Shown here piece after piece: positions 4,095-12,546 of a stretch of DNA of 64,000 nucleotides; position 1 is the first letter of the stretch; every line of letters starts with the position of its first letter. Position numbers and translations under genes: made by a program. The notes beneath the pieces were generated by a model. It was given only the letters and a program-made list of their open reading frames with translations, ran no database searches and was not told where the DNA came from. The DNA lies in the NCBI RefSeq assembly GCF_009831575.1, contig NZ_WUUT01000005.1:62001-126000 (forward strand). The letters run 5' to 3'. This DNA comes from Halovenus carboxidivorans (lineage in GTDB: Archaea > Halobacteriota > Halobacteria > Halobacteriales > Haloarculaceae).

Positions 4095-5159
4095 TCAGGC
4101 CTGATCGGCCAGTTTCGCGCGTTCCTCCTCGCGTCGGCTCGGTGGGAGCATGAAGTAGTTGTTCGGCGCGACGAAGTTCTGCTGGCCGAACTCCGAGAGG
4201 ATCATGTTAATGAAGGCACTCTCCCGCTCGTCGGTATCCTGCCAGGTGTAGCAGTGCAGGTCCCGGCTCAGCGGGTACCCTTTCGCACCGAGGTTCTTGC
4301 CGTACTCGTAGAGCGTGCCGTCGAGTTCGAGTCCGATCGGCGGCGTTCCGCCGTCGGGATTCACGAACGCCAGGGCGATGTACGCGATAGCGTTGTTGTT
4401 TTGCTGGACGAGTTGTGCGACCTGCTGGTTCTGGCCCTGTCGCGTGTCCGGGGAGATCGGCTCGTCTGGGTTGCCGTAGAGGTTCGCGCGGAACGCGGTG
4501 TCGGTCCCGGAGTCCTCCGCACGACCGATAGCGTAGATCTCCCGGTCCGGCCCGCCGACCTGACTCCAGTTCGTGATCTCGCCTTTGTAGATGGCCCGGA
4601 GCTGATCACCAGTCAGCTGCGTGACACCCGCATCGTAGATCTCCCGGCTCACGACGATAGGCTGCCCGTCGACGCCAACAACGTGGTCGACGAGGTTATC
4701 GACATCCTCGGAGTCCGACCCGAGGATCGACTCGGCCGTCGAACTCGCGTTCCCGATGTCCACGCGCTGGTTGGTCACCGCCTCGACGCCGGTTCCGGAG
4801 TGGCTGAGTGCCACCTGTGTCTGGAACGGGGGGACACTCCGTTCTCCTGTCGCCTCGAAGCCGTACAGCCCCGCCCAGTAGTCGGCAAGGTTCTGGTCCG
4901 TGTCGATGCCGTACTGGCCCGGACCCCAGTATTCCTGGTCGTCCGCTGGCGGGTTCCCGTTCCACAGCGACGCCGCCCTGTTCGCGATCGGATAGACCGT
5001 CGACGACCCGTCCGCGGTCAGGGTGTCGATTTCGGACTCGGACTCGTCACCGCTGCCGAGGGTACACCCAGCCAGGGCCGTTGCGCCGACTGTGCTGCCA
5101 CCGATGAGGAATTTTCGTCGTGATACTCGCCCTGAGAGACGCTTTGAATCCTGCGTCAT
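4095..5159 (-). CDS. pstS: Phosphate-binding lipoprotein PstS
   Basis: Extracytoplasmic phosphate receptor that delivers phosphate to PstCA. The N terminus has a twin-arginine signal (SRRKFLIGG) and a lipobox LAGC near residue 32, so it is exported folded by Tat and anchored by a lipid, the usual haloarchaeal arrangement. Later motifs DGSSTVYPI and SGTGVEAV are typical phosphate-contact segments of PstS. The frame also allows a GTG one codon earlier (5162); ATG at 5159 is preferred. The palindromic TATA box lies 31 bases upstream. First gene of the pst operon, so expression is presumably induced by phosphate starvation. Confidence 0.95.
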   Translation of the reverse strand: MTQDSKRLSGRVSRRKFLIGGSTVGATALAGCTLGSGDESESEIDTLTADGSSTVYPIANRAASLWNGNPPADDQEYWGPGQYGIDTDQNLADYWAGLYGFEATGERSVPPFQTQVALSHSGTGVEAVTNQRVDIGNASSTAESILGSDSEDVDNLVDHVVGVDGQPIVVSREIYDAGVTQLTGDQLRAIYKGEITNWSQVGGPDREIYAIGRAEDSGTDTAFRANLYGNPDEPISPDTRQGQNQQVAQLVQQNNNAIAYIALAFVNPDGGTPPIGLELDGTLYEYGKNLGAKGYPLSRDLHCYTWQDTDERESAFINMILSEFGQQNFVAPNNYFMLPPSRREEERAKLADQA

Positions 5160-5180
5160 CACCTGCCTCTTCCGGACACC

Positions 5181-5389: not shown

Positions 5390-6388
5390 ATGAAAGAACG
5401 AAAGATCCAGTTGGCTGGTGGATCGACGTATACGGTGTCACTGCCAAAAGAGTGGGCGAACGAGATCGACGTCGGGCCGGGCGATACCCTCCGTCTGTAT
5501 CCGCACGAGAGTCAGTTAGTCATCGAACCCTCAGAGGTGGGTGACGAACTCAAGGAAGCGTCCGTCGAGGTCGAAGGCTACTCCGACGAACGGATCCGCC
5601 GGACGATTCTCGCCTTTTATACAAGCGGGTTCAGTAGTATCACGCTCGCGGAACCGACGGGGTTCGACCACAGTCGTCGCGTCGTCGCCGAGACGACCCG
5701 GAAACTGATCGGTCTCGAAATCATCAGGTCGACGGAGACGGAGATCACGCTCAAGAACCTGCTCAACTCGACGACGGTCTCGGTCGAGCAGTCGACGAAA
5801 CAGATGCAACAGGTCGCGCTCTCGATGCACGAGGACGCGCTCGGTGCGCTGCTCGAACAGGACGCCGACCGGGCCGAACGCGTCGCCGAGCGCGACGACC
5901 AGGTCGACCGACTGTACGCGATGGTGCTACGACAGTTCCAGCGCGCGCTCGACAATCCGGTCACGACCGAGGAACTGGCCCTCGAACGGACGGCGCTGTC
6001 GGACTATCAGGTGACCGCGAGACAGTTCGAGCGGGTCGGCGATCACGCGGTCAAGATTGCGGAACTGGCGACGCAGTTCGAGCACCCCCTGCCGGGGGAT
6101 TTCGCCGACCGTATCGAGACGGCCGGTCGGACGGCCCGGGACATCGTCGACCAGGCGGCGGCGACGATCATCGACAACGGCGAGACGGAGACAGCACACA
6201 CCGCCCTAGATCGGCGCGACGAACTGAGTGCAGACCTCAAAGAGACCGAACGAGAGCTTCACGAACGGGACATCGAGGAGAGCCACCTGATCGCCCTCAC
6301 ACTCGACAGCCTGCTGCGGACCGCGGAGTACGGCGGAAACATCGCGGAGACGTCACTCAACACGGCCGCACGGGCCGAACACCTCTAA
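5390..6388 (+). CDS. PhoU family protein with N-terminal AbrB DNA-binding domain
   Basis: Likely regulator of phosphate uptake. Residues 1-50 form a SpoVT/AbrB swapped-hairpin domain (KIQLAGGSTYTVSLPKEW, then GDTLRLYPHESQLVIEP). Two helical PhoU repeats follow, about 115-215 and 220-325, containing the PhoU-type motif ARQFERVGDHAVKIAEL at 206-222. Classical PhoU lacks the AbrB part, but the fusion is common in archaea. It is divergent from pstSCAB across a 230-base promoter region, so it could bind that region directly, unlike bacterial PhoU, which acts through PhoR. Family assignment is firm; DNA binding and target are inferred. Confidence 0.9.
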   Translation: MKERKIQLAGGSTYTVSLPKEWANEIDVGPGDTLRLYPHESQLVIEPSEVGDELKEASVEVEGYSDERIRRTILAFYTSGFSSITLAEPTGFDHSRRVVAETTRKLIGLEIIRSTETEITLKNLLNSTTVSVEQSTKQMQQVALSMHEDALGALLEQDADRAERVAERDDQVDRLYAMVLRQFQRALDNPVTTEELALERTALSDYQVTARQFERVGDHAVKIAELATQFEHPLPGDFADRIETAGRTARDIVDQAAATIIDNGETETAHTALDRRDELSADLKETERELHERDIEESHLIALTLDSLLRTAEYGGNIAETSLNTAARAEHL

Positions 6389-10415: not shown

Positions 10416-11318
10416 TCACTGCGAGGGCGGCATCGCAGTTTCGAGTTCGCTCGTCGCCAGGAACTGCTCGACGAACGACTCGGCGGCCGCGCTCATCTCC
10501 GAGACGTTCGACAGCAGGACCGTCTCACTCGGGAACAGTCTCTCACCGATCAGGAGGCCGTGTTCGCGTGCAGTCGAGCCGGTCACCGTGAGATAGACGC
10601 CGAGTCCGCACTCGGCAATGGCGGCTTCTTCCTCTTGGCCCTCTTCGGGGTAGGTGAACTCGACGCCCTCGACGGCCTTCGATCCGAGCGTCGCTTCGAC
10701 CAGACGCTCGTATCGCGGCGAGACACAGAGCGGCCCGCTGTAATCGCTAATAAACGCCCGGTCCAGCGGCTGATCGGGCGAGTCGAGGACGTTCGGGCGG
10801 GCCAGCAGCGTGTGATGGACCGTATCCCCCAGTCCGGTGACGAGCCGAACGTCCGTGTCCGACGGGCTGATCCGCTCGTTGACCGCCTGCAGACTCCGCA
10901 GGGGTTCGTCCGCCAGCGAAACGATCTCTTCGAGAACGAGATCCGCGCTGTCGAATCCGAGCGCGAACTCGTGTTTTCGCAGCGCCCGCAGTGGCTCCTC
11001 TCTGCCGACTAACTGGAGACGGCGGTCCCCGAACGGGAGCGTGATACTGTCGAAGACGATCCGGCGGGGCATCCCCTTTCGCGCGTCCCGAAAGAGCGTG
11101 AACTCCGGCTGTTCCGGCGTCGAGAGGTCGCTGTACGACGCCAGACGCTCGTAGACGGTCCGCTCGTCCGTCCGCTCTCCCTTCGTGATCGCTTTCTCGT
11201 ACCGGAGCGTCGAGATAATCTCGTCGGCCGTCTCCTCGAACCCGCTGCGGGCGACCCGTTCGAGGACCGCCTCCAACGGTCGCCCCTTGCGGGGCACCGC
11301 GACGCGTATCGGCTCCAT
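10416..11318 (-). CDS. HisG-like (ATP phosphoribosyltransferase-related) protein of unknown function
   Basis: A 300-residue soluble acidic protein. The N terminus VAVPRKGRPLEAVLERVARSG resembles the start of HisG (ATP phosphoribosyltransferase). ALGFDSADLVLEE at 119-131 resembles the HisG GITGxD segment, and TGSTAREHGLLIGERLFPSE at 246-265 resembles the HisG PRPP-binding loop (TGxTLxANGL). The segment between is much less like HisG, and 30-90 carries an insertion-like region. It may be a diverged paralogue using the same periplasmic-binding-protein fold, not the histidine pathway enzyme. No histidine gene is nearby. Family resemblance is from reading motifs; function is unknown. Confidence 0.6.
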   Translation of the reverse strand: MEPIRVAVPRKGRPLEAVLERVARSGFEETADEIISTLRYEKAITKGERTDERTVYERLASYSDLSTPEQPEFTLFRDARKGMPRRIVFDSITLPFGDRRLQLVGREEPLRALRKHEFALGFDSADLVLEEIVSLADEPLRSLQAVNERISPSDTDVRLVTGLGDTVHHTLLARPNVLDSPDQPLDRAFISDYSGPLCVSPRYERLVEATLGSKAVEGVEFTYPEEGQEEEAAIAECGLGVYLTVTGSTAREHGLLIGERLFPSETVLLSNVSEMSAAAESFVEQFLATSELETAMPPSQ

Positions 11319-12021: not shown

Positions 12022-12546
12022 TTACTCCTCGGCGGTCGCCGAGAGGTCCTCGAGCACCTCGGGGTCGGTTCGGAACTTGAGGACGTTGTGGACCACCGAG
12101 TTGCGGATGTTGTGGATCACTTCCCCGTGCTCCTTGTAGAAGTCGTGGATCCACTTCGACTCCGCTTCCCGGTCTGGGAACATCATCACCGACTTCCACT
12201 GGTACTCCCCGTCGGAGAGGAAGTAGAAGATGGTGTGTTCGTCGTCGCGGATGTCCTCCATCGCCTCCCGCCAGCCGTCCTCGAAGGCGGTCGGGTCGAT
12301 CTTGAACTCGAACAACCCGAAGATGAAATACTCCTCGTTGGGGATGATCGCTTCCCGGAAGACGCCCTGTTCGCGCATTCCGCGAATCGATTCGCTGACG
12401 GTGACGTGCGAGACATCGATCCCGTGGTCCTCTTCGAGGATGCGGGCCAGATCCCGCGAGGAGAGCTGTGGATCGCGCGACAGCTCCCGCAGGATCAGAA
12501 TATCCCGCTCCTTGAATTCCCAGTCCGGGGCATCATCGTCGTTCAT
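12022..12546 (-). CDS. AsnC/Lrp-like winged-helix transcriptional regulator
   Basis: DNA-binding regulator of 174 residues. Residues 10-75 form a winged helix-turn-helix (ERDILILRELSRDPQLSSRDLARILEED, then HVTVSESIRGMREQGV), close to the AsnC/Lrp type. The C-terminal 95 residues do not match the usual RAM domain and look like a family-specific effector or dimer domain (FYFLSDGEYQWKSVMMFPDRE). It lies 21 bases downstream of the hydrolase gene on the same strand and probably regulates this fatty-acid-like operon. The ligand is unknown. Confidence 0.8.
   Translation of the reverse strand: MNDDDAPDWEFKERDILILRELSRDPQLSSRDLARILEEDHGIDVSHVTVSESIRGMREQGVFREAIIPNEEYFIFGLFEFKIDPTAFEDGWREAMEDIRDDEHTIFYFLSDGEYQWKSVMMFPDREAESKWIHDFYKEHGEVIHNIRNSVVHNVLKFRTDPEVLEDLSATAEE

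Follow-up and report, generated by a model that had tools for sequence, protein, structure and literature searches.

What does a haloarchaeon that already has an ordinary hisG do with a second protein of the HisG fold? The question is raised by an open reading frame in a 64,000-nucleotide stretch of Halovenus carboxidivorans DNA (contig NZ_WUUT01000005.1, positions 62,001 to 126,000; hereafter the window), which encodes a HisG-like haloarchaeal protein, HisGL. The frame, 300 codons long with an ATG start on the minus strand, was found where a preliminary description had placed it (Table 1), and in 67 of 67 family rows (the window protein, L039, included) a start codon lies at the aligned start or at most four codons from it. 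The same description regarded the gene as a HisG paralogue outside any histidine operon and asked whether a separate, normal hisG exists. The genome does have an ordinary long-form hisG (G000:C4:206653-207108; match E 7.8e-49, 281-aa ORF), the product of which scores 206.3 bits on the hisG equivalog and also matches the C-terminal domain TIGR03455. The position outside a histidine operon agrees with the neighbours scanned, although this says little because the normal hisG also sits between unrelated genes, for an Rce1-like protein and a DNA methylase. In curated profile searches the C-terminal HisG regulatory domain was not found in HisGL.

The resemblance to HisG had been noticed in three stretches, residues 4–25 (IRVAVPRKGRPLEAVLERVARS), 121–127 (GFDSADL) and 246–255 (TGSTAREHGL), all of which are present and rank among the best-conserved parts of the family. 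The resemblance goes beyond chance, in that 46 of 50 HisGL members match the HisG profile PF01634 with an E of 1 or lower, the best being 1.1e-5, and the predicted fold puts HisG structures well ahead of other proteins. The window protein itself falls below the curated cut-offs of both PF01634 (E 0.014, 15.7 of 25.5 bits) and the hisG equivalog TIGR00070 (E 0.028, 14.3 of 75.75 bits). When alignments of haloarchaeal HisGL and HisG, both low in diversity (Neff about 2), were compared by hhalign, only the region of the TGST loop was matched (21 columns, prob 7.6, E 0.0046), and a forced global comparison gave no useful alignment (prob 0.04). Sequence-only searches of solved structures returned one match at E 1 for the single protein and seven matches at E of at least 0.23 for a 50-row profile, with HisG among neither set.

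The AlphaFold2 model of HisGL, built from a 50-row alignment, has a mean pLDDT of 91.5 and a pTM of 0.86. With this model Foldseek gave E. coli HisG (1h3d) as its first match (E 2.6e-9), and HisG made up all of the best 50 among 866 matches with an E of 10 or below. VIA-align superposed the model on Methanothermobacter HisG (2vd3) over 203 residues with a Z of 15.1 and an rmsd of 3.4 Å; among its best 50 rows, rows 1–35 were HisG (Z 15.1–12.1) and rows 36–50 (Z 9.9–8.9) were VCA0144, the title of which states no function, and for the most part solute-binding proteins or sensors constructed from such proteins. The predicted model thus adopts the catalytic-core fold of HisG, with which it aligns between residues 1 and 293 of 300, and supports the view that HisGL is a remote homologue of HisG, an ATP phosphoribosyltransferase. 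The homology proposed in the preliminary description is supported by the predicted structure and, weakly, by profiles, the protein's own score lying below the family cut-off.

Table 1. HisGL and its conserved elements in the window, with the basis on which each was assigned
Feature	Codons	Coordinates	Strand	Basis
HisGL (HisG-like haloarchaeal protein)		10416..11318	(-)	300 aa plus stop, ATG start
PRKGR, the HisG 'P-x-KGR' N-terminal motif	9-13	11280..11294	(-)	9/9 alignments
Extra segment region	~24-84	11067..11249	(-)	DSSP of model; ~50 residues longer than HisG
RR, start of strand matching HisG strand 2	85-86	11061..11066	(-)	4/9 alignments
GREEPLRALRKHEFALGFDSA, replaces HisG 'R-x-x-DIP...LGITG'	105-125	10944..11006	(-)	4/9 alignments
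G-x-GDTV-[mostly Y]-H, at the place of HisG 'GGC-R', family-specific	162-169	10812..10835	(-)	6/9 alignments
VYLTVTGSTAREHGL, counterpart of HisG TG-x-T loop	241-255	10554..10598	(-)	9/9 alignments

An insertion at residues 30–90, as first proposed, proves to be about right: relative to the genome's own HisG there are some 50 extra residues, and the KGR arginine and R85 are 72 residues apart in HisGL, as against 22 in that HisG. According to DSSP of the model, the extra segment consists of a first helix extended to residue 45, a helix at 55–62 and a strand at 72–76. A match to the GDS1 winged helix (PF25318) in this segment falls below cut-off in the window protein (E 0.23, 12 of 27 bits); across the family, 18 of 50 members matched at E up to 1, the best at 0.0041.

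Mean column identity over 50 HisGL members is 61%. Among 67 rows (66 distinct sequences, window protein included), a chosen list of positions was inspected, and many of them are invariant. In the N-terminal part these are P9-R-K-G-R-P14, and in the extra segment and its end E41, K42, K46, Y56, R58, S63, R77, D78 and R80. They are followed by P84, R86, F89, D90, G105-R-E-E-P109, R111, R114 and H116, by G121-F-D123, A125, D126, E130, N147, R149, P152, D156 and V157, and by G162, G164-D-T-V167, H169, P201-R-Y-E-R205, E230 and E231. Towards the C-terminus G240, Y242, T244, G247, T249, A250, G254, L255, G258 and F262-P-S-E-T266 never vary.

In HisG the aspartate of the D-x-x-x-T/S-G-x-T loop contacts the ribose of PRPP and binds it. 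In nine alignments of HisGL with HisG, three of them full-length and six after removal of the extra segment, this residue falls every time on Tyr242, which all 67 rows share; the remainder of the motif (T/S246, G247 and T249) is kept. Judged by the curated cut-offs and by the loop Asp, then, HisGL is not a HisG. Numbering of Psychrobacter arcticus HisG was transferred by motif, by spacing or offset and by the range over which the genome's own HisG matched, and the correspondence of residues is therefore inferred. On this basis R13 of the KGR motif, Arg in all 67 rows, lies on Arg32 in nine of nine alignments. For the short-form P. arcticus HisGS, an enzyme that operates with HisZ, one report gives Arg32 and Arg56 as important for catalysis, with 25- and 42-fold losses, and lists a kcat only about 4-fold lower for C115A and D179A and a more severe, 117-fold, effect for C115S (PMC9734150). 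A salt bridge from Arg73 to the ATP gamma-phosphate is described in a second (PMC10795190).

Alignment of the intervening region depends on how the extra segment is cut. R85/R86 fall on Arg56/Lys57, and Gly105 on Arg73, in four of the nine alignments, namely all four with residues 27–76 or 27–80 removed, and in none of the two with 30–70 removed or the three at full length; in these other five the region is aligned otherwise. The order of the strands in the model speaks for the four. R85 is Arg in 66 of 67 rows and R86 in all, and the residue at the putative Arg73 position is Gly in every row, with the adjoining Arg106 also invariant. The HisG cysteine (C115) falls on residue 168, beside the invariant His169, in six of nine alignments; of the 67 rows, 50 have Tyr at this residue, 10 His, three Trp and three Phe. 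The side of the cleft that would receive PRPP and its leaving group thus looks kept (R13 and the TGST loop, and also R85/R86, where the alignment is less certain), and the ATP side looks to be replaced by family-specific residues that are equally strict.

HisGL is a haloarchaeal family without a curated model of its own. In a draw of 294 genomes it was present in 46 of the 53 from the haloarchaeal order and in none of the 241 others of the phylum, and in a second draw 119 of 145 genomes of the order carried it, 118 as a single match and one (G307) as a split match; the other 118 proteins of this draw are 58–70% identical to the window protein. The split gene (C1:1264380-1265378, minus strand) is interrupted by 105 extra bases near residue 27 within a 373-aa open frame, which points either to an insertion close to the segment peculiar to the family or to an error of sequencing. 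HisGL occurs in 41 of 51 genera and is missing from the 10 others drawn, so its function is dispensable. For 20 listed among the 26 genomes that have none, no other drawn genome of the same genus carries it, and hisG is present in all nine HisGL-less genomes common to both searches. Outside the order the HisGL profile matched 40 of 241 genomes at E up to 1; for 32 of these (E up to 0.034) the matches fall within profile positions 200–286, in frames of 281–366 aa (31) or 561 aa (one), and by frame size and position most read as true HisG. The remaining eight (E 0.06–0.57) were taken as chance.

A pattern scan of 84,980 species genomes found 37 loci, with haloarchaeal titles that include Actinarchaeum halophilum (Halobacteria), at 59–84% identity; of the named relatives, a Halovenus metagenome genome (84%) comes nearest, followed by Halobacteriaceae bacterium SHR40 (74%). 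The sole annotated record found, from Natrinema thermotolerans, says 'hypothetical protein'. Among open-licence PMC papers on haloarchaeal HisG paralogues and phosphoribosyltransferases no title deals with this family, and the terms hisG and PRPP do not occur in the review PMC8305020.

The genes upstream of HisGL on the same strand recur at the 37 named loci (of which L020 reaches just 633 bases upstream): a metallo-beta-lactamase-fold gene at 32, a coiled-coil gene at 28 and a YlbF-like gene at 21, with the coiled-coil gene within 200 bp at 23 and the metallo-beta-lactamase-fold gene that close at five. This conserved same-strand block is seen, for example, at L004:2536-6894, and its coiled-coil protein is variable in length. 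With the NCBIfam model 'halo-CC-star protein HcsL' the YlbF-like protein (L004:2536-2931, plus strand) additionally scores 58.2 of 140 bits, under the cut-off. In Natrinema thermotolerans the order is dph2, metallo-beta-lactamase-fold hydrolase, 'AAA family ATPase' and then HisGL, the annotated ATPase having Pfam matches of the coiled-coil kind. All three upstream genes are absent from the loci of the two closest relatives (L002 and L003), and in the window's genome the metallo-beta-lactamase-fold gene lies on another contig (G000:C4:29067-29891). This neighbour belongs to PF12706, its nearest solved relatives being a metal-dependent hydrolase and the L-ascorbate-6-phosphate lactonase UlaG. 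A functional linkage between it and HisGL was considered and set aside, for despite its place upstream at 32 of 37 loci 144 of 145 genomes have it (E of 1e-50 or lower), as against 119 of 145 for HisGL; the two are therefore not lost together and the metallo-beta-lactamase-fold gene is independent of HisGL. The conserved cluster names no pathway, and adjacency alone is insufficient to assign one.

Other genes in the surroundings may be recorded here. A small HTH-like protein encoded in the window at 12022-12546 (minus strand), with Pfam matches all below cut-off, is 93% and 85% identical in L002 and L003, where its gene precedes HisGL on the same strand. Downstream of HisGL there is a recombinase-like gene at 17 of 37 loci (L004:8844-10294 and similar), with a small partner gene at 15; its distance and orientation vary, and in Natrinema it is annotated 'integrase'. 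Elsewhere in the window, at 5390-6385 (plus strand), a PhoU domain is joined to an N-terminal domain of the MazE-antitoxin type, and beside this gene another (4095-5162, minus strand) encodes what by eye is a protein like a phosphate-binding lipoprotein.

Collectively, these features lead us to prefer, tentatively, the reading that HisGL binds PRPP or a similar phosphoribosyl compound and would most likely be a phosphoribosyltransferase acting on an acceptor other than ATP. HisGL would be a haloarchaeal protein with an old relationship to the HisG catalytic core, and PRPP or a closely similar compound would bind in its interdomain cleft. The 5'-phosphate would be held by the TGST loop, and the pyrophosphate would be stabilised as it leaves by R13 together with R85/R86. 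The acceptor may sit, in place of ATP, against the GREEPxRxLRxHEFxLGFDxADLVLEE and GxGDTVxH elements. These residue roles, like PRPP binding and catalysis themselves, are what we infer from the comparison with HisG. The strength of conservation and the many invariant charged residues suit an enzyme, and since the PRPP side appears kept and the ATP side strictly replaced, a change of acceptor is a better fit than a pseudoenzyme under relaxed constraint. With the loop Asp lost, however, the protein might equally well bind a ligand without chemistry. More speculatively, HisGL could form a separate class of phosphoribosyltransferase, derived from a HisG core that was adapted, ahead of haloarchaeal diversification, to transfer a phosphoribosyl group to another acceptor; most haloarchaea would then make a nucleotide-like metabolite or modification so far undescribed.

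The alternative that survives best, possible though doubtful, is a non-catalytic sensor in which the HisG cleft binds PRPP or a nucleotide and the extra N-terminal segment signals to a partner. Such a role would sit well with the missing loop Asp and regulatory domain, with the appearance of solute-binding proteins after HisG in the structural list and with the frequent position of HisGL downstream, often closely so, of the coiled-coil gene; the invariant residues of the extra segment and its end could then form the partner surface. However, the arginines tied to departure of the leaving group in HisG appear kept, for which a pure sensor would have no need, and no second domain above cut-off was recognised in HisGL by the curated profile searches. 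A separate and unlikely reading is that the TGST loop of HisGL serves to bind a different phosphorylated metabolite, unrelated to PRPP. The exchange of the loop Asp for Tyr and the apparent exchange of the Arg that contacts the ATP gamma-phosphate for Gly would be in keeping with this, as would the same general fold of the solute-binding proteins, but the HisG matches lie clearly ahead of these (Z of 12.1–15.1 versus at most 9.9). That HisGL is a second ATP phosphoribosyltransferase for histidine synthesis is highly improbable, for although the predicted fold is the same and the KGR motif, the TGST loop and, it appears, the arginine pair are kept, a normal hisG is present both here and in every HisGL-less genome compared, other residues stand in place of the loop Asp and, as far as the alignments tell, of the Cys and the ATP gamma-phosphate Arg, and the score is far under the hisG equivalog cut-off.

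Many haloarchaea, then, have a second and highly conserved protein of the HisG fold, its active site partly changed, that probably handles a related sugar-phosphate for another purpose. The fold is that of the gateway enzyme of histidine synthesis, and HisGL has it in most haloarchaeal genomes while belonging to no curated family. If HisGL is an enzyme, it points to a PRPP-using reaction missing from what is described for haloarchaea; as a sensor, it would serve archaea as a read-out of PRPP or nucleotide status.

Among known systems, HisGL may be set beside the solute-binding proteins (for example sulfonate-binding 3uif and ProX 1sw1), which by structural alignment have the same two-domain architecture at the lower similarity given above; unlike them, it has no N-terminal secretion signal that could be seen by eye. 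The long-form archaeal HisG of the same genome has the N-terminal motif and the TG-x-T loop in common with HisGL and, in contrast to it, a TIGR03455 domain. Short-form HisGS of P. arcticus, like HisGL, has no C-terminal regulatory domain; counterparts of its R32 and, less surely, of R56/K57 are kept in HisGL, whereas the ATP-side residues differ. From the HisG catalytic core as a whole (PF01634, TIGR00070; 2vd3, 1h3d) HisGL departs in its extra residues after the first helix, its family-specific invariant motifs, the replacement of the loop Asp and, apparently, of the ATP Arg and active-site Cys, and scores below cut-off in both curated models, yet it shares with that core the predicted fold, the P-x-KGR start, the TG-x-T loop and, likewise, the LG-F-x-x-x-D-x-x-x-E element.
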